Positions 16,448 through 59,475 of a stretch of DNA of 64,000 nt are shown piece by piece; position 1 is the stretch's first letter, and each line of letters opens with the position of its first letter. Origin of the DNA: Hymenobacter yonginensis (GTDB taxonomy: Bacteria > Bacteroidota > Bacteroidia > Cytophagales > Hymenobacteraceae). The notes under the pieces were generated by a model. It did no database searches. It worked only from the letters and a program-made list of their open reading frames with translations, and was not told the origin of the DNA. A program made the translations under genes and the position numbers. The DNA lies in the NCBI RefSeq assembly GCF_027625995.1, contig NZ_CP115396.1:1860001-1924000 (forward strand). The letters run 5' to 3'.

Positions 16448-16528
16448 ACGACTGGGGTTTAGGTTGGGATTGTGTGAAACAAGAGCCCAAAACTCACGCC
16501 CAGCAGTGCCGGCGAAAAGGACAGGAAA

Positions 16529-30027: not shown

Positions 30028-30062
30028 CAAAACTGCCGCCGGCTGCCTCGGAGGAAAAGGAC
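30028..30062 (-). promoter_or_regulatory. Late phage promoter A (tail unit)
   Basis: On the minus strand, GTCCTTTT (box starting at 30062) is followed at the fixed distance by CAGTTTTG (30035-30028), the Bacteroidota -7 type. Exactly 23 bases lie between GTCC and the last box, as in four other copies. The T-run of the terminator at 30065-30092 directly precedes it. Confidence 0.75.
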
Positions 30063-30064
30063 AC

Positions 30065-30092
30065 AAAAAAGCCCCGCTGGTGAGGCGGGGCT
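30065..30092 (-). terminator. Terminator of the portal/lysis unit
   Basis: Stem AGCCCCGC / GCGGGGCT (30070-30077 with 30085-30092); on the minus strand it is followed by TTTTTT. It ends the unit portal-holin-lysozyme-spanin and abuts late promoter A. Confidence 0.85.
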
Positions 30093-30151
30093 CCAAGTTG
30101 CACTAGGGTTCTGCCTTCTACCCACACACGGGTTTAGACGGGGCAAACCTA

Positions 30152-30451
30152 CTAAGCGGCTTCCAGTTCGTCAACTCGCTGCTCCAGGCCGGCTACCACC
30201 TGCAGCAACTGCTGCTCCAGGTTGCTCAGCGGCGTGAGGGCAAACAAATCGTAAGCAGTCAGAATGGCCAGCCCCTCCCCCGTTCCCACGTACACCGGGG
30301 CTGCTTTCGGCAGGCGCGGCGGTGGCTCCGAAGCCGGCTCCTGCGAGGCCGCTGCCTCACTGGGTTGCCACTGGAAACCGTCGCCGGTCCCGTTGGGGTC
30401 ATAATCTGTTTTCCGGCCGAAGCCGATGGGACGTTGGGGTGTTTTTTCCAT
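30152..30451 (-). CDS. Small phage protein, hypothetical
   Basis: A 99-residue protein, proline- and alanine-rich in the middle (EAAASQEPASEPPPRLPKAAPVYVG), with a C-terminal amphipathic helix (LSNLEQQLLQVVAGLEQRVDELEAA) that could form a coiled coil. It follows the lysis genes with a gap of 26 bases and is the last gene before the unit's terminator. Not recognised. The start at 30451 (MEKTPQRPIGFGRK) fits the spacing; a longer frame into the lysis genes is rejected. Confidence 0.5.
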   Translation of the reverse strand: MEKTPQRPIGFGRKTDYDPNGTGDGFQWQPSEAAASQEPASEPPPRLPKAAPVYVGTGEGLAILTAYDLFALTPLSNLEQQLLQVVAGLEQRVDELEAA

Positions 30452-30477
30452 GCGCAGCAGGGTTGTAAAGTATAGCA

Positions 30478-30849
30478 CTAGCGCCAGGGTTTGAGCCAAA
30501 GTACCAGGCCGGCTAGGGCCACGAGGACGGCCGCCGTGCTCAGCTGCCGGCCGGTGATGCCGTGCTGCACCACCACGTCCGAGTCCGTGTTGCCCACGTT
30601 TTTGAGCTTGAGCTTGCCCCGGGCCGGCGCGCCAACATTGGCCAGCGCCTGCGTCTGGGCATCGGTCCAGCGCTGCACCTGCCGGGGCGAGGCCTGCGCC
30701 GGTGGCGGCACCAGGTAGGCCGGCAGCGCGGCCAGTGCCCGGAGCGAGTCGGGGTTGGGCGCGCGCACCAGCTCGGGCAGCGGGCGCAGGCTGGCGCAGC
30801 CGGTGGCCAGGCTCAGCAGCGCCCCGCAGTAAAGCAGCCGCCCGCTCAT
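30478..30849 (-). CDS. Spanin-like lipoprotein with C-terminal membrane helix
   Basis: A 123-residue protein with an N-terminal lipoprotein signal (lipobox LATGC, cysteine at residue 18) and a C-terminal transmembrane helix (about residues 102-119, STAAVLVALAGLVLWLKPWR). This topology, outer-membrane lipid anchor plus inner-membrane helix, is that of unimolecular spanins such as T1 gp11, which fuse the two membranes at the end of lysis. Its start overlaps the lysozyme stop (ATGA at 30846-30849), next to holin, so a spanin role is likely. No sequence match to a known spanin is claimed. Confidence 0.6.
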   Translation of the reverse strand: MSGRLLYCGALLSLATGCASLRPLPELVRAPNPDSLRALAALPAYLVPPPAQASPRQVQRWTDAQTQALANVGAPARGKLKLKNVGNTDSDVVVQHGITGRQLSTAAVLVALAGLVLWLKPWR

Positions 30850-31298
30850 GGCTTGAGGAATAAGGCGGCCTCGCGCAGCCGGCGCGCTTCAATGGCGGCG
30901 CTGAGCTTGCCGTTCACGTTGCGCCAGATGCGGAAGTAGTTCCGGAGCGCAGCCGGGTCGCGGACGGCCGTCGTGTTGACGTAGCGCACCAAACTGGACT
31001 TGGCCAGCGCCGCCTCGCCCAGGTTGAAGGCAAACGACACCAGGGCGTTGAACTGGTTCTGGGTGAGCGGCACGGTCACGGCGCGGTTGACGGCCGCCTC
31101 GAAGCGCGCCAGGTCTTTGCTGAGCAGCATCTGGCTCTGCTCCCGGGTGATGGTCATGCGGGCCACCACGTCGGGCCCGGTGTGGCCCACGCCGATGGTG
31201 GCCACGCCGGCCGCGCATAGGTACGTTTTCAGCACTTCGCCTTCTTCCTTCGTGATAAAGGCCCGACCGGCAGCGTCGGTTTTCATGTTCACACTCAT
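30846..31298 (-). CDS. Phage endolysin, GH24 lysozyme
   Basis: A 150-residue muramidase that cuts peptidoglycan during lysis. The catalytic pattern E-8-(D/C)-5-T is complete: E19, C28 and T34 in EEGEVLKTYLCAAGVATIGVGHT. The cysteine variant is the P22-type. The remaining fold is visible as LTQNQFNALVSFAFNLGEAALAKSSLVRYVN. No signal peptide or SAR segment is present, so release should depend on the holin encoded just upstream. It overlaps the holin stop by four bases and the spanin start by four. Confidence 0.92.
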   Translation of the reverse strand: MSVNMKTDAAGRAFITKEEGEVLKTYLCAAGVATIGVGHTGPDVVARMTITREQSQMLLSKDLARFEAAVNRAVTVPLTQNQFNALVSFAFNLGEAALAKSSLVRYVNTTAVRDPAALRNYFRIWRNVNGKLSAAIEARRLREAALFLKP

Positions 31299-31831
31299 AG
31301 TGCAGGGGGTATGGTGCCCTCAGCGGGCTCCGTGGATGGATCAGGTTCCGGGGCGGCAGGCAACTCGTCTGGGGGCGTCTTGCTGCGGAACTGGCCGGTT
31401 TCCTCCCAGTCGGTCATGCCGCGGCGCAGGAACTTGGGCAGCGGCAGGCCCAGGCCGCCAAGCCCGCGCAGGTTTTCGTCGATGCTCTTGGTTTCGATCA
31501 GCAGGATGAAGAAGTAGATGGCGCCCTTCACCCCGAAGGCCATGTACTCGGCCCAGGGAAACTTGCTGCCGTCAACCTCGATGTTGCAGAACACGTGGGC
31601 CACGACGATGCCCACGCCGTAGTCGCGCAGCTTGGTGAACATCTGGCGCATTCCCCGTGAGTGGAAGCGGCCCTGCCGGAAGCTGCGGGCCATGCCCAGG
31701 CCGGTGTCGAGCAGGAACAGCACCATGAGAAAGGCCAGCGCATTCCAGTCGTTGAAAATGTATTTCTCGAACAGATGCCACGCTTTTTCCAGCATGAAGT
31801 GCACTTGTGGAGGCAGGACTATGGAGAGCAT
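31295..31831 (-). CDS. Phage holin family protein
   Basis: A 178-residue membrane protein with about three helices: near residues 28-47 (LAFLMVLFLLDTGLGMA), 70-85 (YGVGIVVAHVFCNI) and 98-117 (FGVKGAIYFFILLIETKSIDENL). The ETKSIDEN segment after the last helix fits the Phage_holin_4 group. The C-terminal 50 residues are acidic and proline-rich and should be cytosolic. Holins time lysis by opening the inner membrane. It overlaps the preceding gene by one base (TAATG) and the lysozyme by four, forming a compact holin-lysozyme-spanin cassette. Confidence 0.8.
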   Translation of the reverse strand: MLSIVLPPQVHFMLEKAWHLFEKYIFNDWNALAFLMVLFLLDTGLGMARSFRQGRFHSRGMRQMFTKLRDYGVGIVVAHVFCNIEVDGSKFPWAEYMAFGVKGAIYFFILLIETKSIDENLRGLGGLGLPLPKFLRRGMTDWEETGQFRSKTPPDELPAAPEPDPSTEPAEGTIPPAL

Positions 31832-32847
31832 TAGCAGAAGCGGATAACCTTGGATTCAGCCGTATTGAGCGCCACGACCGGCGTGGCAGGCGCCCGGTAA
31901 GGACCGAGCGTGAAGTAGGTGGCGTACCTGGTAGCGGAGGCCGTGCGGTTCAGGAACTGCCGCATCTTCTCCAGCCGGATGTCGGCCGCGCGCTGGGCCT
32001 CGAAGGCCCGGGCGGCCAGCAGCTGGTCGAGGCCGGCATCGGCTTCCTTGCTGTTGGAGTCGTCCAGGCGGGCCACCATCAGCTCAATGCCGTCGCCGGT
32101 CAGCCGCAACCCCAGCTCGGGCACAGCCCTAGCCAGCGTCAGGCTGGCCAGCGCCGGCCGCACGAACTGCTCGAGCAGCTCTTCGTTTTCGGCCGTCAGA
32201 GTGCGGGTGCGGACCTGCTCACGCAGTTCGCTCAGGAAGTCGTAGCCCAGCTGCGGCTCGAGAATGAACAGCTCCTGCGTGCTGATCAGCGGCCGCAGGG
32301 CCTCGAACACCGGCCACGACTCCTGAATGTTCTCGAAGCGCGAGAACTCCACGGCCGACACCAGCAACTGCCGGCGGTAGAGCTGCCCGGGGCCCGCGGC
32401 CCAGGCCTGCAGCTCCGGCGTGGTGGCGCGGCTGCTTTCCAGCCACTCGAGTAGCGCGTTCATATCCTGGTAGCCCTTGCGGCTGAGCGTGCGGCGCAGG
32501 GCCGTAATCTGCCATTGGAAGGCCGTTTTCTGCGTTTCCGTGCTCACGATGTGGATGCCCGTATCGCCGAGGCTCACCTGCAGCTCGTCCAGGGCGCCGG
32601 CCATGGCCAGGCGCGCCAGCGGGGCCTGCACCCGGGCCAGCAGCTGGCCGGCCGGCGTCTGGTCGGTGGCCGCGGCGCCGGCGGCATACTGCGCATCCAG
32701 CCAGTGCAGCAGCGTGGCCCCGAGCACCGGCAGCAGCAGCTGGCCCCGCAGGCGCTCCTGCTCGCGCTGCACCGGCTCGGGCACCACGCTCGTATCCACG
32801 CTCACGTAGCGGCGCAGCTCTTCACTCGTTTTAAGCAGGCTCAGCAT
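31831..32847 (-). CDS. Phage head-tail connector-like protein (DUF6712-like)
   Basis: A 338-residue helical protein (MLSLLKTSEELRRYVSVDTSVVPEPVQREQERL...). In Bacteroidota phages a protein of this size and helical type (I recall it as DUF6712) follows the portal and is thought to belong to the head-tail connection. Features are a long Leu-rich helical core and the C-terminal TRYATYFTLGPYRAPATPVVALNTAESKVIRFC. It overlaps the portal stop by 17 bases and the holin start by one, so it sits between structural and lysis genes. Confidence 0.55.
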   Translation of the reverse strand: MLSLLKTSEELRRYVSVDTSVVPEPVQREQERLRGQLLLPVLGATLLHWLDAQYAAGAAATDQTPAGQLLARVQAPLARLAMAGALDELQVSLGDTGIHIVSTETQKTAFQWQITALRRTLSRKGYQDMNALLEWLESSRATTPELQAWAAGPGQLYRRQLLVSAVEFSRFENIQESWPVFEALRPLISTQELFILEPQLGYDFLSELREQVRTRTLTAENEELLEQFVRPALASLTLARAVPELGLRLTGDGIELMVARLDDSNSKEADAGLDQLLAARAFEAQRAADIRLEKMRQFLNRTASATRYATYFTLGPYRAPATPVVALNTAESKVIRFC

Positions 32848-34237
32848 CGTCGGATTGACCGCCGGTGGCGGTGGAAGTGTTGGATTTGGACACGTCAGCC
32901 GTCTGGGCCAGCGGATTGAGGAAGCGGAACTCCAGCTCGGCGGGCCAGCCGTTGTAGTCGCGCACCAGGTAGAGCGGCTCGAGAATCAAATCCTGGTGGA
33001 AGCGGTGAGTGCTGATGAAGTTGTTGAAGGCGATGCGCTTGTCGGAGCCTGAGCCGGCGCCCATGCCCTTGCCGGGCGAGATGCCCACCAGCGTCGGGTC
33101 CACGCTCAGCGAGGTGTAGATGTGGCTGCTGGCCTCCTGCGAGTCCTCGATGTGCAGGCCACTCTTCACTTTGTCGTCAATGGCCGTCACCTTGAAGGCC
33201 GACACGCTCTCGCCGGTGCGTGGATCCTGCACCGACACCGACAGGATGGACTTGCCGGCGCCGGCGGCCCCGGTCATGGTCTTCTCGAAGTCGGCCAGCT
33301 CGTCGCCGATGATCTGCCGGCGCTGCTCGGTCACTTTCGTGTCCCAGTCGGGGTATTTCCACTTCCAGTACCGCTCGTCCGTCTCGATCAGGTACTTGAT
33401 GCTAAGCTGATTCCTGAACATGGCCGCCTTGAACTCGGGAATGGCCTGGGCTACGTCCAGCCAGCCCGAGCGGCGGATGCTGTTCCAGCTGGCCAGCTGG
33501 TAGAGGGCCTTGCCCGGGCTCGGCAGCGCCAGCGGATACACGTACTTGAAGCCCCGCGTATCGGCCTTGAGGGCCTCCACCGGCTCGTAGTAGGGGTCGA
33601 GCACCGGCACTGAGGTGGTGAACTCGTCGCCGGGCTTGGCCTCGGGCCAGTTGGCCGAGATGTGCACCAGCTCCGGCACGGCCTGGCCAGCCTTGGGCAC
33701 CGAGTAGCGGCAGAAGGCCGTGTCCTGGGTGGTGAGGGTGGTGAGCTTCTGCCGGTTGAGCGAAAGAATCAGCTCCGGGTAGCTCTGGCCGAAGGTGAAC
33801 AGGTTCTGCAGGCCCTCGTAGGCGTAGCGCGGGATGTTGCTGCGCCGGAAAAAGGCCTCCACGTCGGGCAGCCGCACCCGCTCGAAGAGTTCGTTACCGG
33901 CCTTGTCAAAGCCCGTGACGCGGCCGTAGACCACGCCCCCGCCGTACACGGCGCGGGTTTTCCATTCCAGCACGCTGGGCAGGATCGTATTCGATTCCAG
34001 CGACTTGAGCACCTGCTGCGGGAAGTCGTTGGCCTCGCCCCACAGGGCCACGTCGCCGCTCTGGCCTTTCTCCACCGGCGAGCTGGGCGCGGCCCCATCC
34101 TGGGTGGCCGCGTTGCCGCTGCTGCCAGCGCTGCCACCGCCGGCGGCGGCCGAAAACGCGCCGTTCAGGCGCACAATGGAACCGGTGCCGGGCGAGTACG
34201 CCAGGTGGCCGGCGGAGCTGAATAGAAGCTGTTTCAT
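32831..34237 (-). CDS. Phage portal protein
   Basis: A 468-residue protein with portal-like parts: a Gly/Ser-rich N-terminus, NTILPSVLEWKTRAVYGGGVVYG near residue 85, a stem region with YEGLQNLFTFGQSYPELILSLNR, and a C-terminal wing with SSHIYTSLSVDPTLVGISPGKGMGAGSGSDKR and FNNFISTHRFHQDLILEPLYLVRDYNGW. These are typical of Bacteroidota siphophage portals, which form the dodecameric DNA gate of the capsid. It directly follows the small gene at 34238-34597 with no gap, in the unit of late promoter C. Confidence 0.8.
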   Translation of the reverse strand: MKQLLFSSAGHLAYSPGTGSIVRLNGAFSAAAGGGSAGSSGNAATQDGAAPSSPVEKGQSGDVALWGEANDFPQQVLKSLESNTILPSVLEWKTRAVYGGGVVYGRVTGFDKAGNELFERVRLPDVEAFFRRSNIPRYAYEGLQNLFTFGQSYPELILSLNRQKLTTLTTQDTAFCRYSVPKAGQAVPELVHISANWPEAKPGDEFTTSVPVLDPYYEPVEALKADTRGFKYVYPLALPSPGKALYQLASWNSIRRSGWLDVAQAIPEFKAAMFRNQLSIKYLIETDERYWKWKYPDWDTKVTEQRRQIIGDELADFEKTMTGAAGAGKSILSVSVQDPRTGESVSAFKVTAIDDKVKSGLHIEDSQEASSHIYTSLSVDPTLVGISPGKGMGAGSGSDKRIAFNNFISTHRFHQDLILEPLYLVRDYNGWPAELEFRFLNPLAQTADVSKSNTSTATGGQSDDAEPA

Positions 34238-34597
34238 TTATAGGATGACTTTGCGGCCGGCCACGGCCACCAGCAGATAGATGTGCACCTTCACCAGCTT
34301 GCCAGTGCTAGTATCCACCAGGTTGCGGGTGGCGTTGGCGTAGTGGTCGGGGTTGCAGGCAATGCGGGCCACGGTGGTCAGGTCGGCGTCCGGCTCACCG
34401 GTGAGCACCGGCACCGGCGGCGCGGCCTGACGCTTACCGGAGCCGATACCGGAGCCGAGGCGGGCGGCCGCTAGCTCCCGGAACTCGCCGCCGGTGCCGC
34501 GGCGCCTATCGCACGTGACGAAGCGCACAGCTACGGGCGTGCCGCTTTCCAGCAAAGCCAGCGCGTCCTTCAGCCGAATGGTTACGGGTGTTTCCAT
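34238..34597 (-). CDS. Small phage protein upstream of portal
   Basis: A 119-residue protein (METPVTIRLKDALALLESGTPVAVRFVTCDRRRGTGGEFRELAAARLG...). The N-terminal part with AVRFVTCDRRRGTGGE and the C-terminal GKLVKVHIYLLVAVAGRKVIL suggest a small beta/alpha fold; I do not recognise it. It opens the unit driven by late promoter C, with the ATG five bases after the -7 box, implying an almost leaderless transcript. Upstream in-frame starts would lie before the promoter and are rejected. Confidence 0.5.
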   Translation of the reverse strand: METPVTIRLKDALALLESGTPVAVRFVTCDRRRGTGGEFRELAAARLGSGIGSGKRQAAPPVPVLTGEPDADLTTVARIACNPDHYANATRNLVDTSTGKLVKVHIYLLVAVAGRKVIL

Positions 34598-34601
34598 GGG
34601 G

Positions 34602-34636
34602 CAAATCTGCCGCGCCGGCCGGCCCACCAAAAGGAC
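34602..34636 (-). promoter_or_regulatory. Late phage promoter C (portal/lysis unit)
   Basis: Minus-strand GTCCTTTTG (from 34636) with CAGATTTG (34609-34602) at the same 27-base distance as the other copies. Here the TTTTG before GTGTCC is present but no terminator abuts; the previous terminator lies 220 bases upstream. Confidence 0.75.
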
Positions 34637-34946
34637 ACAAAACCGCCTTAGTTGCCCCGAAAACGCACAAAAAGCCAATCTCACAGCGTTTTGCCCCTGC
34701 GCGCTGCAAACGCCGTTTTTGGGCGCTTTGAGCGTTTTACAGTCTCACCAGTCCAGCGCGATGCCCCGGCTTGCACTGTCGCCTGCCGGCAGCTGCCGGG
34801 GGCCGCCTCGGTGATATCTGTGGGGCCGACTCGCGTGAACATCACGCACCAGAGGACACGAAAAAGCCCCAACGCAGGCGGCGTTGGGGCTTTTGCATAG
34901 TGACTGAGCACCGACCGGGACCGAGGCAGGCCCTGGCAGGCGTTGA
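34637..34946. other. Intergenic region between terminase and portal units
   Basis: No gene is supported. It holds the terminase-unit terminator (34861-34894) directly followed, on the minus strand, by GTGTCCTCT, which looks like the first half of another late promoter without its second box. About 215 bases of unexplained sequence separate this from promoter C, possibly the site of a lost gene. Confidence 0.5.
34861..34894 (-). terminator. Terminator of the terminase unit
   Basis: Stem AAAAAGCCCCAACGC (34861-34875) with GCGTTGGGGCTTTT (34881-34894). On the minus strand it ends in a T-run after the terminase gene at 34947-36605; the A-run on the other arm could make it bidirectional. Confidence 0.85.
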
Positions 34947-36605
34947 TCAGACCACTAGCAGGGCACTGAAGTCGGGCGTGGTCATGACCACGTCGGTCCC
35001 AACGTAGAGCATGTGCAGATCCACCGTGTCGGTGAAGTGGGTGGCGTGCTCCTGCGGGAAGCTCTCCTTCCGTTCACTGGTCTTGATCTTGCTGATGTTG
35101 CCCTTGCTGTCCTGCCCCACTGGGGCCAGCAGCATGGCCTGCACCACGTCCTTGGTGTTGACCTTGTTGAAGCGCAGGCGGTAACGGCGTGGATCCTTCT
35201 CCTCGAGCACCTCCTGCCCTACCAGGTAGCGCGTGGGATGCCCGGGCACACGTCCCAGGTTAGCCCGAGTGATGCGCCAACCACGTGACTGCAGCACCTT
35301 GATGAAGGTTTCGTTGAGGGTCCAGGGGCTGTTGGGGTTGCGGTTGTTGCCCCACTCGGCGTCCTCCAGGAAGATGAACTCCTTGCGCAGCTGATGCTGG
35401 TAGTAGTCGCAGAAGGCCTGGGCCAGGTCGCTGACCATCTGGGGGTGCTTGACATACATACCCTTCAGCAGGCGGTATTCGCGCACGTCCTCGTGCTTCT
35501 GGCCCAGGGTGAGCACCGAAATCTTCCCGCCCCAGTCCACGGCCCCTACGATGGGCAAATGGCTGCGGCAGTCAGCGTCCATGCGACTGTCCGGGCTACT
35601 GAGCTTTTTGAGGTTGTACTCCAGCCCCAGGATATAATCGTCATTGTCGGCCTCCACCACGTGGCGGGCCTGGTGGAGTTTGGGATAGAACCCGCCCTCC
35701 ACGGTCGTCGGCCGCCGGTTCATGATTTCAATCATGAACGTGAAGTCAGTCATGAAGCGGCGCTGATCCAGCAGGTACTGAAGGCCCAGGTTCTGGATGT
35801 TATCGAAGGCGTTGGCCTCCGAGTAGAACGTGCCTTTGGTGGCCGCACTCGGGAAGTAGCGCACCTCCAGCATGAGCTTGACCACCTGCTCGCGCCAGAT
35901 ATGCAGCCGCTCCTCGTCGGTGGTGGCGTCGATGAAGCGCACCTGCGCCGCAATCAGCTCGTTTTGGCGCTGATTGAGGTCGATACCGTCGTTTTCGTAG
36001 TACTTGGCCTTGTCCAGCAGCCAGCGGCCCTGGTCGCCCCAGGGCATGGAGCTGAAGAGAAACACGCCGTGGTGCTTCGGGTTTTTGCCGAAATACTGGC
36101 CGTTGCCGCGGTTGGTGGCCGACAAGTCGGCATCGAGCTTCTCTTTGTTGAAGAGCAGCGCCTCGTCGCCGATAAAGCCGTCCACGTTCAGGCCCCGGGA
36201 GGCCGAGCCACCGGCATCAAGCGAGACCAGGTGAAACCCGGTCCCGTTGCGGAAAATGATGAAGTGGTCGTAGCTGAGCGGGCCTTGGATGGGCCTATCG
36301 AACAGCTTCGAGGGCGCCGGGCGCCGGCCCACGTAGAAGTCGCGGTCCAGCTTGTAGCCCAGCGCCTCCAGGCCCGCAATCGTCGAGGGCAGCGTGCGCG
36401 TGAGCACCTGCTTGTAGGTCGAGCCCACGATGACCCAGCAGCTGCGGGGCATGGTCTGCACGATTTCGTGGATGTCCCACGAAATCACGGTCGACTTGCC
36501 CGTACCGCGGCCCCAGATGCTGACGCCCTCCTTTTTGGCCTTGGCCGTGACGTAGCGCAGCTGCGGCTGGTTGAAGCTGAGCTTGATCTGATCAACGATG
36601 ACCAT
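34947..36605 (-). CDS. Terminase large subunit
   Basis: A 552-residue DNA-packaging motor. The N-terminal ATPase has Walker A WGRGTGKST with K37 and a Walker B-like GFIGDEALL (D147, E148). The C-terminal nuclease domain begins near residue 370 with VGAVDWGGKISVL, whose aspartate should bind metal, and continues with FIFLEDAEWGNN. It starts at 36605, overlapping the small-subunit candidate by 14 bases. It is the last gene of the unit begun by late promoter B. Its separation from portal and capsid units is unusual. Confidence 0.92.
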   Translation of the reverse strand: MVIVDQIKLSFNQPQLRYVTAKAKKEGVSIWGRGTGKSTVISWDIHEIVQTMPRSCWVIVGSTYKQVLTRTLPSTIAGLEALGYKLDRDFYVGRRPAPSKLFDRPIQGPLSYDHFIIFRNGTGFHLVSLDAGGSASRGLNVDGFIGDEALLFNKEKLDADLSATNRGNGQYFGKNPKHHGVFLFSSMPWGDQGRWLLDKAKYYENDGIDLNQRQNELIAAQVRFIDATTDEERLHIWREQVVKLMLEVRYFPSAATKGTFYSEANAFDNIQNLGLQYLLDQRRFMTDFTFMIEIMNRRPTTVEGGFYPKLHQARHVVEADNDDYILGLEYNLKKLSSPDSRMDADCRSHLPIVGAVDWGGKISVLTLGQKHEDVREYRLLKGMYVKHPQMVSDLAQAFCDYYQHQLRKEFIFLEDAEWGNNRNPNSPWTLNETFIKVLQSRGWRITRANLGRVPGHPTRYLVGQEVLEEKDPRRYRLRFNKVNTKDVVQAMLLAPVGQDSKGNISKIKTSERKESFPQEHATHFTDTVDLHMLYVGTDVVMTTPDFSALLVV

Positions 36606-37284: not shown

Positions 37285-37295
37285 GGGCAAGTAGA

Positions 37296-37904
37296 TTAGC
37301 GAAGCGGGAGTTTTTCCCGAATCAGGTGGATCTGCGCCTCCAGACCCGGCAGCTCGGCGGCCCGCTCGGGCCGGCGGCGCACCTTGGCCCGCAGGCTGAT
37401 CAGATTATCCAGGCGCCGGTGCAGCTCGCCGGCGTCGGTCACGTCCTGGGTGGCCACCGGGCCGGGCAGCCGGCCATGCGCCAGCACGTGCTGCTCGGCC
37501 GAGAGCAGCTGCCGCACCTGGTCAGTGAGCTGACAGATGCGGTGGGCCAGTTTGTTGCGGTTAGCTAGGCGCAGGCCGGGCGTCGTGAGCTGCGCATGCG
37601 CGTGGCTGCGCTCGTCGCGGGCCGCCTTGAGCTGCGTCCGGACGCTGGCCAGCACGGCCAGGTCAGGGGCTGGCTGATTGGTTGTTGGTTGTTGGTTGTC
37701 GGCTACAGGCGCCGGGACCGACTCCTGCACCGGGCCGGCCAGCAGCTGCAGCTGCGCCACCAGCACCTGGCGGCTGTACCCGGTCTCGCCCAGGGCGAAG
37801 AGTTGCTGGTACACGGCACTGCCACCCAATTGCGCATATAGCGCCACGCCGGCGGCGAAGTCGGCCGGCGCGGCCAGCCATGCGAGGAGTTCACCCTGTT
37901 TCAT
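37296..37904 (-). CDS. Hypothetical phage protein, first gene of the terminase unit
   Basis: A 202-residue helical protein (MKQGELLAWLAAPADFAAGVALYAQLG...). The second half is a long charged helix (QLKAARDERSHAHAQLTTPGLRLANRNKLAHRICQLTDQVRQLL). Residues about 68-76 (DNQQPTTNQ) are encoded by a GTTGTTGGTTGTTGGTTGTC-type stretch, one arm of the repeat seen in ispG, so the host-repeat family has entered this phage gene in frame. The start at 37904 is four bases from promoter B's -7 box. No family recognised; it may be DNA-binding or a packaging accessory. Confidence 0.55.
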   Translation of the reverse strand: MKQGELLAWLAAPADFAAGVALYAQLGGSAVYQQLFALGETGYSRQVLVAQLQLLAGPVQESVPAPVADNQQPTTNQPAPDLAVLASVRTQLKAARDERSHAHAQLTTPGLRLANRNKLAHRICQLTDQVRQLLSAEQHVLAHGRLPGPVATQDVTDAGELHRRLDNLISLRAKVRRRPERAAELPGLEAQIHLIREKLPLR

Positions 37905-37908
37905 GACC

Positions 37909-37943
37909 CAAAACTGCCGCCGGCTGCCATGGCGAAAAAGGAC
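37909..37943 (-). promoter_or_regulatory. Late phage promoter B (terminase unit)
   Basis: Minus-strand GTCCTTTTT (from 37943) and CAGTTTTG (37916-37909) with 23 bases between GTCC and the last box. The sequence GGCAGCCGGCGGCAGTTTTG is shared exactly with promoter A. It abuts the terminator at 37946-37978. Confidence 0.75.
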
Positions 37944-37945
37944 GC

Positions 37946-37978
37946 AAAAAAGGCCCCAGCCATGCGGCTGAGGCCTTT
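37946..37978 (-). terminator. Terminator of the capsid unit
   Basis: Stem GGCCCCAGCC / GGCTGAGGCC (37952-37961 with 37966-37975, one mismatch); minus-strand T-run TTTTTT follows and continues into promoter B. Confidence 0.8.
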
Positions 37979-38009
37979 CCCCTCACTTGCCCGTTCTCTC
38001 ACCTCCGGG

Positions 38010-38240: not shown

Positions 38241-38242
38241 CG

Positions 38243-38791
38243 TTAGGCAACGGGCTTGTAATCGATATTGCCGCGGTACAGCTTCAGGCCGGTGGAATAG
38301 GCCTCACCCTTCACCATGGTACCACGGCGGCCCGAGTTGAGCTTGCCCGAGTCGTAGCTGGGCAGCAGCTCTACCGGCAGGCCTTCGGCACCCACCTGGA
38401 TGTATTCGCCATCGGCATCGGGCACCAGCATGATGCCGCCGATGTTTTTCACCAGGTTCAGGAATTCCAGGCTCTCGGGCTTATTGCCGGGGTGGAACCC
38501 TTCGAAGTTGATCTTCAGGCCGCGGCCGTCCCGCTCACCCACGATGTCCGCCTTCAGCTGGTTGGAGTCGACGGTGATGTAGAGTTTCAGGAAGCCGTAG
38601 CCGTCCTTGAACACGTGGTCGGTGGCAATGATGGCCGAGGTGCCGGCTGTGGCCTGCGCAGCCGAATACTTCGGTGCCTTGGCAATGGTCGTGAACCACG
38701 CCTCCGGGGCGAACAGCACGTAGCCGAGCAAGCCGGGCGTGTTGTCCTCACCGGCGGGGCCGTCCAGGTTTTTAAGTTTGGCTAAATCCAT
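38243..38791 (-). CDS. Putative major tail tube protein
   Basis: A 182-residue protein with a beta-rich pattern (GYVLFAPEAWFTTIAKAP; GFLKLYITVDSNQLKADIVGERDGRGLKINFEGFHPGN; LNLVKNIGGIMLVPDADGEYIQVGAEGLPVELLPSYDSG). Size and strand pattern fit tail tube proteins of siphophages, and a comparable small protein follows the capsid in many Bacteroidota phages. It lies in the capsid unit rather than near the tape measure, so the assignment is an inference from fold pattern and length. It could instead be a head decoration protein. Confidence 0.45.
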   Translation of the reverse strand: MDLAKLKNLDGPAGEDNTPGLLGYVLFAPEAWFTTIAKAPKYSAAQATAGTSAIIATDHVFKDGYGFLKLYITVDSNQLKADIVGERDGRGLKINFEGFHPGNKPESLEFLNLVKNIGGIMLVPDADGEYIQVGAEGLPVELLPSYDSGKLNSGRRGTMVKGEAYSTGLKLYRGNIDYKPVA

Positions 38792-38845
38792 CAGAATGGG
38801 ACTCTAGTCGGTGTGTAATGGGTAAATGGCTACTGTTGAGCAGAA

Positions 38846-39187: not shown

Positions 39188-39236
39188 GACGTGGCGGGGG
39201 TGAAATCGGTAGTTGAACGATGATTTACTGGGTGTC

Positions 39237-39272
39237 AGCAAGGGCCGGCCCCACCTGGGGCCGGCCCTTGCT
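39237..39272 (-). other. Strong hairpin after the capsid gene
   Basis: A perfect 17-bp stem AGCAAGGGCCGGCCCCA (39237-39253) with 39256-39272 and a 2-base loop. There is no T-run, so it is more likely an RNA-stability or partial termination element than a true terminator. It lies between the major capsid gene and the following small gene. Confidence 0.7.
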
Positions 39273-39280
39273 CACGTGGC

Positions 39281-40240: not shown

Positions 40241-40292
40241 TAGAGTGGGCTTAAATGGGTGAAAAACTCGTTTTTATGGGCGATTGAACCGC

Positions 40293-41681
40293 TTAGCCCT
40301 CGCCCAGCATTTTGGCGTGCAGCGCGTCCACCGTCTTCTGATGGTCGTTGGCACTGGCCTCCCCTTCCACGTCGTTCTTTTCCTTCGACTTGCGGGGATT
40401 GGTCACGGTAGCGCCAGGCTGCTCAGCAAGCCGTTCCATCTCGGCCTCGGCCTCGCCAGCACGCTTTTCAGCAGCTGCTACAGCGTCCTCGGCCGTCTTC
40501 TGGGCGGCTTTGGCGTCGGTGGCTTCCTTCTGTGCGGTGGCCACGGCGGCCTCGGCCGTGTCGGTGCGGCCGGCCTTGGCCACCAGCTCCGTGTAGGCGG
40601 CCTCGCTCACGAGGGCCACGCCAGTGATGCCAGCCTCTTCGAGCTGGTCGTTGGCAGCCTCAACCAACGGGGTGGTCACGGCGGCGCCAGTCAGGCCTGC
40701 CAGAGCGGTCAGGGCCGAGAATTTGTTCTTTCCGAACATGGTATTTGCAGTTGAATTGGTGGCATTTTTGGGAGTACTGCCGCCGTTCTCGGCGGCATTC
40801 CGGACCATGTCCAGGGCCAGCTGCACGGCATCCTCGAAGGTGCCCATGCGGTCGGCCAGGCCGTTTTGCACGTTGGCCTCCCCGATGTAGACCATGCCGC
40901 TGAGCAGCTCGTCCTCCAGCTTCGAATCGAGCTTGCCGGCGCGGTTCTGGCGCACGGTGTCCAGGAACACTTCGTTGAGCGGATCCAGCAGCTGCTGGCG
41001 AATGGGCTTGTAGTTGCCCTTCACGGCCTGCTCGAAGGCCGCATTCTTGTTGGTGGACTTGGTGGCGGCGATGTCGTGGTCGACGACGCCGGCGGCGGCC
41101 ATGGCGTTGGAGTAGTCGCGGAAGCTGACCTTCGTGCCGATGGAGCCGAGCATGGCCGTGCGGCCCCCCACGACGATGCCGCCGTTGGCCCCGGAGCCGG
41201 CCCAATAGCCGGCCGAGCACATCTGCTGGGCGTAACTCACGAAGGGCTTCTGGGTGCCGGCGATGATGCTGGCAAAGGTTTCCAGGCCGCTCGTCGAGCC
41301 GCCGGGCGTGTTGAAGCGGCCCACGTGCGCCACGATGCTCTCGTGCGCGTCGGCCTGCTGAATCAGCCGGCCGAGGCTCTGCGTGCCGAGGCTCCAGCAC
41401 GTGTCGGCCTCCATCATCACGCCCTCAATAGTGTGCACCGCTACTGAGCCGGCCGGCACGTCGGCCAGCGACTCGTAGCCCATCAAACCCAGCTCGGCCG
41501 CGTGCGGCACAAACACCTGGATGGCCCGCGACGACTCCGGCAGCTCCCCTTCCACCCAGTCGGAGGCGCGGAACTTGCCCTCGCGCATCTGCTCGGCAAT
41601 GGGCAGATACGTATGAATGGCAGAGCCTTCCAGCAGGAAGAAGCCATTGAGCACAGCCATAAGGAGCGGGTGTACGCGCAT
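40293..41681 (-). CDS. Prohead protease (S49 family) fused to scaffold
   Basis: A 462-residue protein with two parts. Residues about 70-300 form a SppA/S49-type ClpP-fold protease: GRFNTPGGSTSGLETFASII (residues 121-140) and SYAQQMCSAGYWAGSG with the likely nucleophile S156; K208 is at the expected distance for the general base. Residues about 330-440 are a charged coiled coil (AKAGRTDTAEAAVATAQKEATDAKAAQKTAEDAVAAAEKRAGEAEAEMERL), a typical internal scaffold. Such fusions drive procapsid assembly and are digested afterwards. First gene of the unit behind late promoter D. Confidence 0.85.
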   Translation of the reverse strand: MRVHPLLMAVLNGFFLLEGSAIHTYLPIAEQMREGKFRASDWVEGELPESSRAIQVFVPHAAELGLMGYESLADVPAGSVAVHTIEGVMMEADTCWSLGTQSLGRLIQQADAHESIVAHVGRFNTPGGSTSGLETFASIIAGTQKPFVSYAQQMCSAGYWAGSGANGGIVVGGRTAMLGSIGTKVSFRDYSNAMAAAGVVDHDIAATKSTNKNAAFEQAVKGNYKPIRQQLLDPLNEVFLDTVRQNRAGKLDSKLEDELLSGMVYIGEANVQNGLADRMGTFEDAVQLALDMVRNAAENGGSTPKNATNSTANTMFGKNKFSALTALAGLTGAAVTTPLVEAANDQLEEAGITGVALVSEAAYTELVAKAGRTDTAEAAVATAQKEATDAKAAQKTAEDAVAAAEKRAGEAEAEMERLAEQPGATVTNPRKSKEKNDVEGEASANDHQKTVDALHAKMLGEG

Positions 41682-41703
41682 CAGTTTCAGGGTTGAAGTG
41701 ATG

Positions 41704-41738
41704 CAAAGCTGCCGGCGCCACAGTCCGGCAGAAAGGAC
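41704..41738 (-). promoter_or_regulatory. Late phage promoter D (capsid unit)
   Basis: Minus-strand GTCCTTTCT (from 41738) with CAGCTTTG (41711-41704) at the fixed 27-base distance. It abuts the terminator at 41741-41769. The capsid-protease start lies about 22 bases downstream of the box, so this unit has the longest leader. Confidence 0.75.
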
Positions 41739-41740
41739 AC

Positions 41741-41769
41741 AAAAAACCCCCGACCGGGTGGGTCGGGGG
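41741..41769 (-). terminator. Terminator of the fibre unit
   Basis: Stem CCCCCGACC (41747-41755) with GGTCGGGGG (41761-41769), then TTTTTT on the minus strand. It ends the unit with the beta-helix and fibre genes and abuts promoter D. Confidence 0.88.
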
Positions 41770-41798
41770 CGTGACAGTGTAAGGCGGCAGCAGTAGTG

Positions 41799-42350
41799 CT
41801 AGCGCAGCACGTAATTCTCTGCGCCGGCTCGCATGGTCCAGGCGCATTGACCGTAGCTCATATAGCCGCCAGCCCACAACTCTGCATAAGCGGGTGCCTG
41901 CTGCAGCGTGTACACCAGTTCGCCGTTCCGCAGCCACTCCACCCGGTCCGGGTAGATATTGATGTGGAACACGTCCGATGGGTTCCAGCCACCGCCGGGA
42001 TAGCCGGAGCCGGAGCCCTCCACGAAAACCATCCAGGTGGTGGCCGAGTCCACGTAGATGCCATACCGCACGTTGGCGAAGGCCGCATACGAGTCGGAAT
42101 ACCAGCCGGCAATGCCGTAATCGAAGATTGGGTTGTGCTGCAGTTCCAGGCTGGCGCGGCCTGGGAGCACAGCCTTTTTGGTCCCGAGGCCGTACGCATA
42201 CGCCCCGGTCGAGGTGAGCGTGCCGGTGGCCAGGTCCTGCGTGGTGGCGTTCAGGTCGCGATAGGTCACGAATTCCAGCACCGGCCCACCGCCTGCCGGG
42301 GGCGGGTAAAATGCATTGCGGTTGGCCTGTAGAAACTGCAGCTTAGGCAT
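41799..42350 (-). CDS. Putative tail-fibre or receptor-binding protein
   Basis: A 183-residue protein with an aromatic, glycine-rich beta pattern (YGIAGWYSDSYAAFANVRYGIYVDSATTWMVFVEGSGSGYPGGGWNPSDVFHINIYPDRVEWLRNGELVYTLQQAP). The run VEWLRNGELVYT is typical of lectin/concanavalin-type sandwiches. It overlaps the beta-helix gene by eight bases and ends the fibre unit. Located beside a beta-helix protein, it may form the tip of the host-binding apparatus. No named family is recognised. Confidence 0.5.
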   Translation of the reverse strand: MPKLQFLQANRNAFYPPPAGGGPVLEFVTYRDLNATTQDLATGTLTSTGAYAYGLGTKKAVLPGRASLELQHNPIFDYGIAGWYSDSYAAFANVRYGIYVDSATTWMVFVEGSGSGYPGGGWNPSDVFHINIYPDRVEWLRNGELVYTLQQAPAYAELWAGGYMSYGQCAWTMRAGAENYVLR

Positions 42351-44331
42351 AAGAGAGAATCACGTTGGAAGCGTTGGCCGGCGTAACCGGATTGGTTTTC
42401 ACGAGCAGGGCCACACCAGTCGCGTACTGCGCGTTGCCGGCAGCCGGCAACGCGGCCTGCGCCTCGGCCAGCGCGTTCAGGTCGGCCGTACCGGTCCAGG
42501 TGCCGGTGCTGAAGGTGGCCACCTGGTAGGCCACGCTGGCCGCGTTGTCGTCGAGCAGCATACTCAGCAGCGTGATGTGGCTGGTGAGGCGGATACGGCG
42601 CACGCGCAGGCCGTTCGTGCTGCCGATGTGCAACTCGCTTGGCCCGCTGGCTCCGCTGGTGTTCTCATTCACGACCGTCAGCTGAGCGGAGATGGCACCC
42701 GTTACCTTACCCCCGTTGCGCAGGAGGACTGTGCCCGCCGTGCCGCCGATGCTCTTTATCGTTGCGTTGTCGAGGATGAGCGTGCCCCCGGTCAGGTACG
42801 CGCCCGGCGCGCTGGTGCTGGTGTTATCGTACACGCCATCGGCCAGCGTTACCTCGCCGCTGCTCATGTACACGATTTCGGACAGGGCAAAGCCCAGGCC
42901 GGTGAACAGACTGCCACCTTCAATGCGGATTTTGGCGGTGCCTGCGCAGTCGACCAGGCGGTGGTAGCTCTGCTCGATGACGGCATCCGACTTGATCAGC
43001 GCTTGCGCGGAGCCGCTCAGCACGAAACCCTTCGAGCCGCCGAGCCGCACCGGCCCAGCGACGTGGCGGAAGATGGCCGTGCCACTGAGCACGGCTACCG
43101 TATTGTTCGTCGAGTCGCCTCGCAACAGGCCCGAATGCGTGAGCCGGCCGGCCGACATGCTAACGGCCGTGCCCGCGTTCGGATACAGCGCCTTTTCCAC
43201 TACGATATCAGAGCCGGCGCCAGTCACGGAAATAGCACCGCCGCCGTAACGGCCCTCGGGACTGTTGCCCACTACTTTGCAGGTAATGATGGTGAGGCCG
43301 TCGTCGGTGAGCAGGTTCCAGTTCACCATCCGCCCCCCCGTGGCGTAGGTCACGCCGCCTTTGAGCGTGAGTACCGGCACCGGCGCCGTACCTATGGCCT
43401 CCACCGTGTCGCCGTAATCGGCCAGGGCGTTGGCCGCGGCCAGCGTACTGTAGAAACGAGGAGCCCCGTTGGGCCAGATCAGCCGGGCCTGACTGGTGAC
43501 GGCCGCCGTGGCCGTGGCCAGTTCCTGCTGCAGCGCCGTCTCCAGATGCCGGCGCAGCACATTAGCAGCGCGGATATGGTCGCTGCCGATTGAGCCGGCG
43601 GCTAAGCTGCCGTATACCTGCCCTTCCACCTCATCCAGCATCAACTGGCTTTCCGGGTGCATGGCGGCAGCCAGCGCGGCTGGCGAGAAGCCTGCCCCGC
43701 CCGGCAGACTCGACACGAGCGGGGCCAGCGGCAGGTAGTTCGGATCATCGGCCTCGCCCGTGGGCACCGGGTTCAGGATGCCGGCCCCGGGCAGGGGCAG
43801 GTCGCGGCGGGCCTGCAGCGGAATGGTCTGGCCGTCCTCGAACTGGTACTTGAACGCGTCGCCGGCCTTGACCGGGTAGTCCTCCAGCTGCAGCCAGGGC
43901 AGGAACTCGGGCCGGGCGCTGGGGTCGCCCACCGGCAGCCAGCGCACCCGCACCCGGGCAGAGCTCTTCACGCTCACGTAGGCCCAGAGCGGGCCGGTGG
44001 AGTCCCGGCGCAGGATGAACTCGGCCTCGCCGGCCTCGACGCCGCTGGCCGCGGAAGCCGAGTCGGTGGCGTTGGCCACCAGCGCCGCCTGGCCCACCAC
44101 CGTGATGCGCTGATCCACGGTGGCCAGCTCATCGAGGGTGGAAAGCAGCAAGGGCTGGCCGAGCTTGCTCCAGAGCAGAAACAGGTCGGCCAGGTCGCGG
44201 GCCTGGGCCCGCAGGTCGGCCTCGGCGATGTTGAAGGTAACGTTGTCGGCAAAAACGGCCTGGTAGCGGTTGAGAAAGCCGGCCGGCGTGAGCAGCAGCG
44301 GCGGCTGCGGGGGAATTGCGGGAAGGGCCAT
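42343..44331 (-). CDS. Large phage protein with beta-helix region
   Basis: A 662-residue protein. The first third is a structural domain (FNIAEADLRAQARDLADLFLLWSKLGQ...; DAFKYQFEDGQTIPLQARRDLPLPGAG). Residues about 300-590 show recurring short beta turns (SVTGAGSDIVVEKALYP, GLLRGDSTNNTVAVLSGTAIF, GSAQALIKSDAVIEQSYHRLVDCAGTAKIRIEGGSL, GGTLILDNATIKSIGGTAGTVLLRNGG), typical of a right-handed beta-helix as in tailspikes. No catalytic motif is evident. A tailspike or fibre role is the best guess. It overlaps the previous gene by one base. Confidence 0.65.
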   Translation of the reverse strand: MALPAIPPQPPLLLTPAGFLNRYQAVFADNVTFNIAEADLRAQARDLADLFLLWSKLGQPLLLSTLDELATVDQRITVVGQAALVANATDSASAASGVEAGEAEFILRRDSTGPLWAYVSVKSSARVRVRWLPVGDPSARPEFLPWLQLEDYPVKAGDAFKYQFEDGQTIPLQARRDLPLPGAGILNPVPTGEADDPNYLPLAPLVSSLPGGAGFSPAALAAAMHPESQLMLDEVEGQVYGSLAAGSIGSDHIRAANVLRRHLETALQQELATATAAVTSQARLIWPNGAPRFYSTLAAANALADYGDTVEAIGTAPVPVLTLKGGVTYATGGRMVNWNLLTDDGLTIITCKVVGNSPEGRYGGGAISVTGAGSDIVVEKALYPNAGTAVSMSAGRLTHSGLLRGDSTNNTVAVLSGTAIFRHVAGPVRLGGSKGFVLSGSAQALIKSDAVIEQSYHRLVDCAGTAKIRIEGGSLFTGLGFALSEIVYMSSGEVTLADGVYDNTSTSAPGAYLTGGTLILDNATIKSIGGTAGTVLLRNGGKVTGAISAQLTVVNENTSGASGPSELHIGSTNGLRVRRIRLTSHITLLSMLLDDNAASVAYQVATFSTGTWTGTADLNALAEAQAALPAAGNAQYATGVALLVKTNPVTPANASNVILSYA

Positions 44332-44981
44332 CAGAGGATTTGGTAAGAGAGTTTAAAGCCCGAGCGCAGCACGATGGTCTTGCCGGCCGGCACCGTGGCC
44401 AGCAGCTGGCCGGCGGCCGTGCGCAGCTGCACCGTGCCGCCGGCGCCGGGCACGAGCACCACGCCGCTTTGCTGGCCATACTCGGCCACCTGCCAGGTGC
44501 CGGTGTAGGGGCGCGCCCGGCGCAGCGCCTCACCCGACAGGCTCCACTCGTAGCCGTTGCGCTGGGTCTGCGAGCCGCTGCTGTAGCTCTCGCGCCACTG
44601 CAGCGGGTGCTCGGGCGTGCCCACGAGCTGCACCTGCCCGTTCAGGTCGCGGTACAGGGCCACGAAGCGGCCGCCCTCCATCGTTTCGAGGCCGGCAGCC
44701 AGCTCCGGCGAGTGCCGGGCCAGCTCGCCCTGCAGCTTCGGGCTGAAGCCGCTGCCGTGGCGCCCGTAGTCCTTGCCGGGCTGGGTGAAGCGCACCGAGC
44801 CGCGCACGCTCACCAGCTGGTACCAGACGGCGCCGGGCGCCAGCTCGAGCTGGGCGATGGTGAGCGGGCCGCGGTGCGGGAAGCCTACCAGGTTGCGGGC
44901 CGGCGTGTACCAGAGCGCCTCCACCCCGCCCAGGTTGTCGAGGCCGGGTTCCGGGCGCAGGTTACTGTAGCGGGGCTCCAT
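44331..44981 (-). CDS. Hypothetical phage protein
   Basis: A 216-residue protein with no recognised family (MEPRYSNLRPEPGLDNLGGVEALWYTPARNLVGFPHRGPLTIAQLELAPGAVWYQLVSVRG...). It is beta-rich and carries no signal peptide; GLDNLGGVEALWYTP near the N-terminus is reminiscent of small structural proteins that precede fibre genes in Bacteroidota phages. It overlaps the upstream gene by 20 bases and the beta-helix gene by one. Likely a structural or assembly part of the fibre unit. Confidence 0.45.
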   Translation of the reverse strand: MEPRYSNLRPEPGLDNLGGVEALWYTPARNLVGFPHRGPLTIAQLELAPGAVWYQLVSVRGSVRFTQPGKDYGRHGSGFSPKLQGELARHSPELAAGLETMEGGRFVALYRDLNGQVQLVGTPEHPLQWRESYSSGSQTQRNGYEWSLSGEALRRARPYTGTWQVAEYGQQSGVVLVPGAGGTVQLRTAAGQLLATVPAGKTIVLRSGFKLSYQIL

Positions 44982-45636
44982 GCTGCTGGCGGATGAAGTC
45001 GATCAGCGACGAGGGCTGCTGCATAAGTTCCTCACGCACAGCGCGGTGCTGCCCCTGCCGGGACAATTCGCCGCTTTTGTGGGACATCTTGCCGGTTTTG
45101 CGGGACAACTCGTCGGTTTTTTGGGACATTTTACCTACCGATTTATCCGCTCTTTTTTTGCGCGGCGGCAGCTTCACGTTCCGCTGCACGGCCTTGCGCA
45201 GGGTCTCGTACTGGATGTCCTCCTCGCGCAGGTCGTAGACGGCCATGAAGTCGGTGATGATTTCCTTGATGGTGCGGCGGCGCGAGGCAAACAGGCGCAC
45301 CCACTCGTAGAGCGACTGGCGCAGGTTCTCGTCGACAAAGTCGTTGAAGTGAAAGATGGTGTAGTCCGTGACCTGGGTCAGGCCGAACTGGTAGGCCGGG
45401 AAGTTGCGCAGGTCCACGGTCAGCACTTGGGTGCAGTCCTCGCGCGACTCGGTGTGGTGCAGGCGGCCCTTGACCTGGCGCCGGAGCAGGTGGTAGAGCA
45501 TCTTGCCGAACTGATCCGAGGTGCTGAGCACGTAGGGCTGCATCTGGTTGGTGTCGGCGTGCAGGGCCAGGCGCAGGTGCACGCTCAGGTACTTGCGCAC
45601 GTGCGGCTTGAGGGGAAACTCAACGGTCTTCAGCAT
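44962..45636 (-). CDS. Hypothetical phage protein with heptad tandem repeats
   Basis: A 224-residue protein, first of the unit behind late promoter E. The N-terminal two-thirds (MLKTVEFPLKPHVRKYLSVHLRLALHADTNQ...; SLYEWVRLFASRRRTIKEIITDFMAVYDLREEDIQYETLRKAVQRNVKLPPRKKR) is helical and basic, as in DNA-binding proteins. Near residues 165-190 is a perfect-register 7-residue repeat, KMSQKTD-ELSRKTG-KMSHKSG-ELSRQG, encoded by a 21-bp tandem repeat. An earlier in-frame start would lie upstream of the promoter and is rejected. No family recognised. Confidence 0.5.
   Translation of the reverse strand: MLKTVEFPLKPHVRKYLSVHLRLALHADTNQMQPYVLSTSDQFGKMLYHLLRRQVKGRLHHTESREDCTQVLTVDLRNFPAYQFGLTQVTDYTIFHFNDFVDENLRQSLYEWVRLFASRRRTIKEIITDFMAVYDLREEDIQYETLRKAVQRNVKLPPRKKRADKSVGKMSQKTDELSRKTGKMSHKSGELSRQGQHRAVREELMQQPSSLIDFIRQQHGAPLQ
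45061..45135. repeat. 21-bp tandem repeat (3.5 units) within a gene
   Basis: Units start with GGACA at 45061, 45082, 45103 and 45124 (the last truncated), each with a TTTT stretch at the same place. They code for the heptad repeat of the gene at 44962-45636, but their periodicity and A/T-tracts would also fit iterons. Confidence 0.75.
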
Positions 45637-45669
45637 AGCGGGGGAAGCATAGCGGGGCTTGGAATCAGT

Positions 45670-45704
45670 CAAAACTATCGGGCGCTGCCCCCGGGCAAAA
45701 GGAC
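45670..45704 (-). promoter_or_regulatory. Late phage promoter E (fibre unit)
   Basis: Minus-strand GTCCTTTT (from 45704) with TAGTTTTG (45677-45670), a full match to the Bacteroidota -7 box TAnnTTTG, again 27 bases after the G of GTCC. Unlike A, B and D it has no T-run in front. The downstream gene starts about 33 bases further. Confidence 0.75.
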
Positions 45705-55019: not shown

Positions 55020-55020
55020 C

Positions 55021-58316: not shown

Positions 58317-58363
58317 GCGCAGCTCCGGTTGGTGTGGCTGTGGTTGGTTTAGCTCTGGTTGGT

Positions 58364-59467: not shown

Positions 59468-59475
59468 CCAACGTT

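Follow-up and report, generated by a model that had tools for sequence, protein, structure and literature searches.

A repeated element before the late genes of a Hymenobacter prophage

The stretch of DNA analyzed here (64,000 nt, referred to as the window) covers positions 1,860,001 to 1,924,000 of NZ_CP115396.1 in the assembly GCF_027625995.1 of Hymenobacter yonginensis and has a GC content of 61%. It contains a Hymenobacter-type prophage of about 46 kb, bounded by a 31-bp att-like direct repeat (left copy 15,000–15,030, right copy 61,115–61,145) and an integrase-like gene near the prophage end (59,385–60,938, plus strand), with its late genes on the minus strand. The subject of this analysis is a 35-nt element, GTCCTTT-N20-nAGnTTTG, which is present in six minus-strand copies (at 30,062, 34,636, 37,943, 41,738, 45,704, and 16,522) and which, judged from its sequence and context, almost certainly acts as a late promoter. 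The first gene behind the copy at 45,704, here called LateA, is a candidate for the corresponding activator.

A preliminary description of this locus had listed five of the copies (30,062, 34,636, 37,943, 41,738, and 45,704), and their coordinates and geometry (GTCC, 23 bases, nAGnTTTG) proved to be correct throughout; the number has to be raised to six, the copy at 16,522–16,488 (minus strand) having been missed. When the gap between the two boxes was left free (16–24), the pattern matched the window six times, always with the same gap, compared to a mean of 0.03 and a maximum of one match in 100 dinucleotide shuffles. Likewise, GTCC and AGnTTTG were found six times at one spacing and not once at each of 20 other spacings, which bears out the earlier judgment that a fixed spacing is unlikely to have arisen by chance. 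GTCCTTT alone is not clearly enriched in the window (nine occurrences versus 5.34 expected, with at least nine in 12 of 100 shuffles), and the second box stands in register at six of these nine occurrences.

A published start mapping in Flavobacterium psychrophilum places the Bacteroidota promoter box TAnnTTTG at -12 to -5 (PMC9723704). Transferred to the element, this puts GTCC at -39 to -36, the following T run at -35 to -32 and the A of the second box at -11. The second box had initially been equated with the Bacteroidota -7 element, which holds for its A and its TTTG, found at all six sites, and not for the first T of TAnnTTTG, which only the copy at 45,704 possesses; CAG is found in four copies and GAG at 16,522. 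Similarly, the TTT after GTCC had been assigned to the -33 region. The T run does lie there according to the published mapping, yet the -33 TTTG of Bacteroidota primary-sigma promoters is present at none of the six window sites, five of which have TTTT and one TTTC. A search for the host-sigma spacing with TTTG-N17..23-TANNTTTG was tried in one genome and discarded (90 matches versus 43 in controls).

The five copies known from the preliminary description stand before late units, which had been named as tail, portal/lysis, terminase, capsid, and fibre; this assignment can largely be kept, except that the unit behind 45,704 opens with a putative regulator gene. This promoter 1 (45,670–45,704, GTCCTTTT-N19-TAGTTTTG; all features of the units are on the minus strand), the sole window copy with TA in its -7 box, precedes LateA (44,962–45,636; 224 aa), which has a predicted helix-turn-helix (HTH) and a computed leader of 29 nt. 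The second gene of unit 1 (44,331–44,981; 216 aa) has a homologue in five of 14 phages introduced below, and the third (42,343–44,331; 662 aa), first read as the fibre gene, matches no family and has no homologue in any of them. A 9-bp inverted repeat (GGGCGCTGC...GCAGCGCCC, 45,680–45,714) encloses promoter 1 around the GTCC box and might be an operator over LateA's own promoter.

Promoter 2 (41,704–41,738) lies before the capsid unit, the first gene of which encodes the head maturation protease (40,293–41,681), with a computed start 18 nt before the ATG at 41,681. Behind promoter 3 (37,909–37,943), the terminase unit begins with a gene for a 202-aa protein (37,296–37,904) upstream of TerL (34,947–36,605), and behind promoter 4 (34,602–34,636), a gene for a 119-aa protein (34,238–34,597) is followed by those for portal (32,831–34,237), holin (31,295–31,831), and endolysin (30,846–31,298). 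The tail unit behind promoter 5 (30,028–30,062) starts with a gene for a 269-aa protein (29,214–30,023) and includes, further downstream, the tape measure gene (21,468–24,794). The sixth promoter (16,488–16,522, GTCCTTTT-N19-GAGTTTTG) precedes a lipoprotein-like open reading frame of 108 aa (16,121–16,447) with a computed leader of 36 nt. Terminator-like hairpins abut three of the five promoters reported initially, namely promoters 2 (41,746–41,770), 3 (37,946–37,981), and 5 (30,068–30,094), and none was found before 34,636 and 45,704. Since the hairpins end at these three promoters, the respective units appear to be insulated. The terminator scan as a whole was not clearly above shuffles (18 hairpins versus a shuffle mean of 12.8, standard deviation 3.7), and its three strongest hairpins are those at the promoters.

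For promoters 3, 4, and 5, i.e., for half of the six units in the window, the start codon (37,904, 34,597, and 30,023) coincides exactly with the computed +1. The same offset is preferred among Hymenobacter sites in general: at 62 of 140 sites without TA in the -7 box (deduplicated by identical 60-mers only), an open ATG follows the box at a distance of exactly 4 nt, which would be +1 by the published mapping, and the next most frequent offset is found at 10 of the 140. According to published data, leaderless mRNAs account for 5.5% in F. psychrophilum (PMC9723704), and about 3.7% of the 5′ untranslated regions of Bacteroides thetaiotaomicron are shorter than 10 nt.

Conservation of the element in Hymenobacter and other Bacteroidota phages

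The genome contigs searched yielded 19 related loci, which are Hymenobacter prophages and include close relatives in the genomes of H. perfusus LMG 26000 and H. rigui KCTC 12533. A terminase search of IMG/VR led to 16 loci, 14 of which carry one to five strict sites; in the contigs of the other two, L012 and L015, one and two sites, respectively, were seen with a relaxed box. All 71 distinct sites picked by GTCC plus AGnTTTG at the fixed spacing have TTT behind GTCC. A weight-matrix scan, before which duplicate loci were removed, as they were before the 14-phage protein survey, yielded 103 sites at the exact spacing, 68 from its training set and 35 new, compared to none or one for every one of the eight shifted spacings tried. 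Its pre-filter exaggerates the constancy of GTCCTTT, with GTCCTTGA preceding LateA in three loci. The -7 box of Hymenobacter sites occurs in the variants CAGYTTTG, CAACTTCG, CAATTTCG, and GAGYTTTG.

In 15 Hymenobacter genomes, 109 sites were counted; 21 same-strand clusters account for 95 of them, and 14 are single. As control patterns gave seven (one base shorter) and 31 matches (reversed), the single sites are judged to be at background level; at least four of them were found close to the end of a contig, among them one (G010 contig 22) that adjoins a LateA gene (L084). Given this census, with 95 of the 109 sites in clusters, a host-wide promoter was rejected as an explanation. The clustering of the motif in prophages and its scarcity elsewhere in the host genomes fit a phage-encoded protein binding to GTCC. 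In 13 IMG/VR records, 46 sites were found, confined to a single strand in each record (reversed-pattern control: none), and a plasmid collection scanned for the motif contained no match.

In addition, 14 other phages were analyzed, of which 12 were picked by terminase homology and two (L352 and L354) by LateA homology; L352–L354 are fragments of 7–16 kb without a site. Together, the 14 phages have 22 sites in the exact register versus none to two at each of 16 other spacings, and nine of them have two or more in-register sites with at least four of the five downstream letters. Three to five in-register sites each, again with at least four letters, are present in Porphyromonas phages, Cellulophaga phage Ingeline_1, B. 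thetaiotaomicron phage BT-TP2, a phage labeled as infecting Microcystis, and two gut contigs. The phages sharing the register span about 32% to 65% GC (those of Bacteroides, Porphyromonas, and Cellulophaga 32–52%), and we take their hosts to belong to the orders Bacteroidales, Flavobacteriales, and Cytophagales. The preliminary description had named a loss of the two boxes and their spacing in related phages as a finding that would speak against its proposal; both are kept in Hymenobacter prophages as well as in other Bacteroidota phages, and GTCC recurs in the same register, as expected from its description as an extra conserved part. The Microcystis-labeled phage (L102, MZ447863.1) is grouped with Bacteroidota phages by its terminase, its LateA-like protein, and its late promoters, so its host label may be wrong.

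A repeated element with fixed spacing could in principle also be a site for packaging, replication, or recombination of phage DNA. This appears very improbable considering that the sites are restricted to one strand in each of the 13 records and lie shortly upstream of annotated same-strand genes in BT-TP2, Ingeline_1, Porphyromonas phage 030a, and the Microcystis-labeled phage, that an ATG offset is preferred in Hymenobacter, and that the second box resembles the -7 box of Bacteroidota promoters.

The upstream box is variable in flavobacterial phages. In-register GTCCTTT is absent from the Flavobacterium phages laban6-1 and 6H. In laban6-1, TGTCACAA is found before late units, five times on the late strand and never on the other, compared to a mean of 2.1 on both strands after shuffling. 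The -7 box follows in register, complete in its five letters at four of these sites and with four letters at the fifth. In 6H, ATGTCTTAA occurs four times on the late strand and never on the other, likewise before late units (shuffled mean 0.78). Polaribacter phage Leef_1 (30% GC, terminase 31% identical) has six copies of GTCCTTT on the late strand, each shortly upstream of a gene, at an overall count near chance (eight on both strands versus 5.57 expected). At 34 sites outside Hymenobacter, which had been chosen as having four or five of the five letters, the -7 box has its T in 25 and its A in 27 cases and mostly reads TAnnTTYG. Four control Bacteroidota phages, chosen as members of other lineages (crAss001 with its first 50 kb), contain neither a LateA match nor a site with all five letters. 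A virome-wide scan with a 14-letter pattern, run against a shorter-spacing control with at least 120 matches each, gave mostly background-like results; among the matches listed, a further same-strand site was present at seven of 120 loci versus none of 120 control loci.

Two boxes at a fixed spacing resemble the recognition pattern of a sigma factor, and the element might be read as a whole by an alternative sigma factor of the host that is exploited by the phages, e.g., one of the extracytoplasmic function type, of which F. psychrophilum has seven (PMC9723704). We consider this improbable because the few host copies outside clusters stay within the range of the controls, some of them at contig ends, and because phages within a single host family have different boxes (in flavobacterial phages, GTCCTTTTAA, GTCACAA, and GTCTTAA).

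A further feature of the spacer between GTC and the -7 box is a palindrome, GGTAATTACC or close to it, which is found at slightly shifting positions in gut phages (L357, L358, L360, L361, L362, L364, L365, and L366) and in one Hymenobacter-type phage (second phage of G023, at 14,046 and 21,698). It is perhaps an operator for a second factor.

LateA as candidate regulator

The structural model of LateA has a mean predicted local distance difference test (pLDDT) score of 77.5, and its helices 123–133 and 143–153 suggest an HTH; the model of a gut homologue (pLDDT 86.1) shows a similar set of C-terminal helices. Pfam searches with 20 LateA members (alignment A2) returned no more than four hits, all of them weak and unrelated (E values up to 0.05), and five distant homologues gave two hits of this kind (E values up to 1). 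The homologue from laban6-1 matches one PHROG without assigned function (E 1e-25), the BT-TP2 copy is annotated as "transcriptional regulator", and the best viral model match to LateA is a Leef_1 protein of 157 aa (E 4e-5). No cysteine was found among the invariant or nearly invariant columns of the LateA alignments A2 and A3. Residues 168–205 of LateA (P0001) form C-terminal heptad-like repeats (SQKT..LSRK), which are seen in many Hymenobacter LateA proteins and are absent from short homologues.

Searches with hidden Markov models (HMMs) detected LateA in the clustered Hymenobacter prophages for which the upstream region is available, remote ones included (L090, L091, and L092). After iteration, one LateA-family protein was found in 13 of the 14 other phages and in 11 of the 12 chosen by terminase; several of these matches were weak in the first round (E 0.002 to 0.1) and became strong after iteration, and the Leef_1 protein was already part of the seed set. 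Among 29 window proteins surveyed in the 14 phages, LateA is the most widespread (terminase 12/14, portal 11/14), while seven early window genes, as well as three late ones, have no homologue in any of them; the HMMs of the early genes were built on 4–12 Hymenobacter homologues, so that remote relatives could escape. The early modules of these Hymenobacter prophages are of two kinds, which according to BLAST have only an integrase in common among their early genes, and both kinds occur with the same motif and with LateA. Early genes were rejected as source of the GTC binder, since the early modules differ to this extent while the motif stays and since the seven early genes are found in none of the 14 phages.

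Another protein that might bind the late promoters in place of LateA is a virion protein or, for example, the 182-aa product of 38,243–38,791, which has a homologue in 10 of the 14 phages, no Pfam match, and no known function. That gene lies inside the capsid unit, whereas LateA surpasses all 29 surveyed proteins in spread, contains the predicted HTH, is located at the boundary between early and late genes in the window, and diverges together with the box in laban6-1 and gut phages. Given also the missing early-gene homologues and the constancy of the motif across the two early modules, we regard a binder other than LateA as rather unlikely.

Upstream of 27 listed LateA genes, GTCCTTT is present in register in 17 cases, and L071 represents an 18th, with its site cut by the locus edge. 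The 17 promoters have the full TAnnTTTG in 13 cases and TTTG after GTCC in seven, as in GTCCTTTG-N19-TAGGTTTG; the -7 boxes of structural units are mostly weaker. Both features of the LateA promoters might suggest that the elements are ordinary primary-sigma promoters, with TTTT or TTTG as the -33 element, GTCC being incidental or belonging to a terminator tail, and no phage factor being involved. The prevalence of TAnnTTYG outside Hymenobacter, the hairpins adjoining three of the five reported sites, and the unenriched number of GTCCTTT in Leef_1 would be in line with this. However, GTC is kept where a hairpin is absent (34,636 and 45,704), it is retained in laban6-1 without the T run, the structural-unit boxes CAGYTTTG and CAACTTCG deviate from the primary-sigma consensus, and the element is scarce outside prophage clusters, all of which make such an explanation unlikely.

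With the LateA protein of BT-TP2 as the only query, a virome scan led to 18 loci. In six of them, GTCCTTT is found in exact register on the same strand as LateA (seven sites), compared to none at 16 other spacings and none on the other strand; L370–L372 share one identical site, which leaves five distinct ones among the seven, and the count of 18 loci is not deduplicated. When nine LateA-found loci (including L358 and L373, which overlap and were both kept) were queried with the -7 letters alone, the top in-register 6-mers were GTCTTT (8) and GTCCTT (5), neither of which appeared at shifted registers. This result indicates that the box varies by phage lineage, while GTC and the register are constant. 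In laban6-1 and in gut phages, a diverged LateA accompanies diverged boxes (GTCACAA and GTCTTT, respectively); a by-eye comparison of the -7 variants with the LateA type revealed no clear pattern. The predicted HTH, the gene position, and this parallel drift of box and protein make LateA the likely binder.

Other genes of the prophage were noted as well. A low-GC island (53,149–56,988, about 32–38% per kb) contains a Cap4-nuclease gene and an AAA_23 gene and is probably a defence system. A UmuC/DinB-like polymerase gene (57,018–58,436) lies between the integrase gene and a repressor-like gene, a serine resolvase/invertase gene (16,529–17,110) has 93% identity to a copy in another Hymenobacter prophage, and a late tail-region protein (26,722–28,665) contains two stretches of SprB repeats, which are a feature of gliding adhesins.

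A proposed late-promoter class and its relation to known systems

The explanation we favor, and hold to be likely as a whole, is a LateA-driven class of late promoters in temperate Bacteroidota phages, to which the six elements of this siphophage prophage would belong. LateA would be made from promoter 1, which bears the host-consensus -7 box, and would bind the GTC(CTTT) box at -39 to -33, in place of the -33 contact of the host sigma factor. It might recruit or position the host RNA polymerase, with the host sigma factor reading the -7 box (nAnnTTTG, -12 to -5). Each unit would be served by a promoter of its own, with transcription beginning right at the A of the start codon in three of the six cases in the window. 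A cascade may result, with LateA produced first and the LateA-dependent units following. The individual steps differ in their strength. The architecture is strongly supported, and it is, on the basis of sequence comparison, highly probable that a phage factor reads GTC; that this factor is LateA is probable to a lesser degree. We infer LateA as binder and activator, and the computed +1 as the start of transcription. Somewhat more tentatively, we would extend the system to the whole of the Bacteroidota, with the LateA family and a GTC box at -39 in register with the -7 box, insulated units, many of them leaderless in Hymenobacter phages, and a joint drift of box and protein in some lineages.

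Several observations weigh against this interpretation. In Leef_1 only two of the six boxes are in exact register, each with four of five letters, and in 6H only one of four is. Three of the four control phages have one isolated four-letter site each, which means that such matches also arise by chance. The contig MT835559 has four exact sites and no LateA match, although its sequence begins close to the terminase gene and could be truncated. Conversely, the exact GTCCTTT site is missing in 12 of the 18 LateA-found loci; among the 27 listed LateA genes, five have a variant GTCC box upstream and for four none was seen; and a scan with the laban6-1 LateA yielded a single new locus (L356, LateA 57% identical) without any GTCACAA site. 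Outside Hymenobacter, an ATG at exactly +1 is found at 4 of 19 sites, and at none of the 13 Hymenobacter TA sites. Searches of solved structures (Foldseek, VIA-align) gave no convincing match for LateA. Finally, LateA shares its ancestry with the terminase (12/14) and the portal (11/14), and as most of the phages were chosen by terminase homology, co-occurrence of LateA alone is no proof of a binder; distribution alone cannot separate it from the accompanying virion genes.

If the proposal is correct, it would provide a handle on the switch to particle production in gut, oral, marine, and soil Bacteroidota phages, a sequence rule for locating late units in unannotated phages together with a candidate regulator, and a number of leaderless mRNAs predicted for a phylum in which such transcripts are rare. 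Within the listings and abstract openings covered by a literature search, no activator-driven late system for Bacteroidota phages was found.

Compared to the sigma-ABfr promoters of Bacteroidota (TTTG at -33, TAnnTTTG at -7), the phage element has the -7 position, the letters nAnnTTTG, and a T-rich stretch near -33 in common. It differs by the additional conserved GTCC at -39 and, at the structural-unit sites of Hymenobacter, by CAG or CAA instead of TAn. Among phage regulators, the activator C of phage Mu serves several late promoters (lys, I, P, and mom), with its site located at the -35 region or further upstream (PMC4461284). The six window sites are comparable to this regulon in sharing one box (GTCC at -39 to -36), which would be the binding site. 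In contrast to C, LateA matches none of the described activator families, its box is short and shows no evident dyad symmetry, the host sigma factor is a different one, and the range of phages is much wider. The Ogr/Delta proteins of P2/P4 are small zinc-binding activators that control several late operons from about -55, whereas LateA has no conserved cysteines and its box lies at -39. At the middle promoters of T4, the MotA box at -30 replaces the -35 contact of the host sigma factor, while the -10 box of the latter is kept. The likeness to these promoters concerns the layout, namely a phage-specific box upstream combined with a retained host box downstream.

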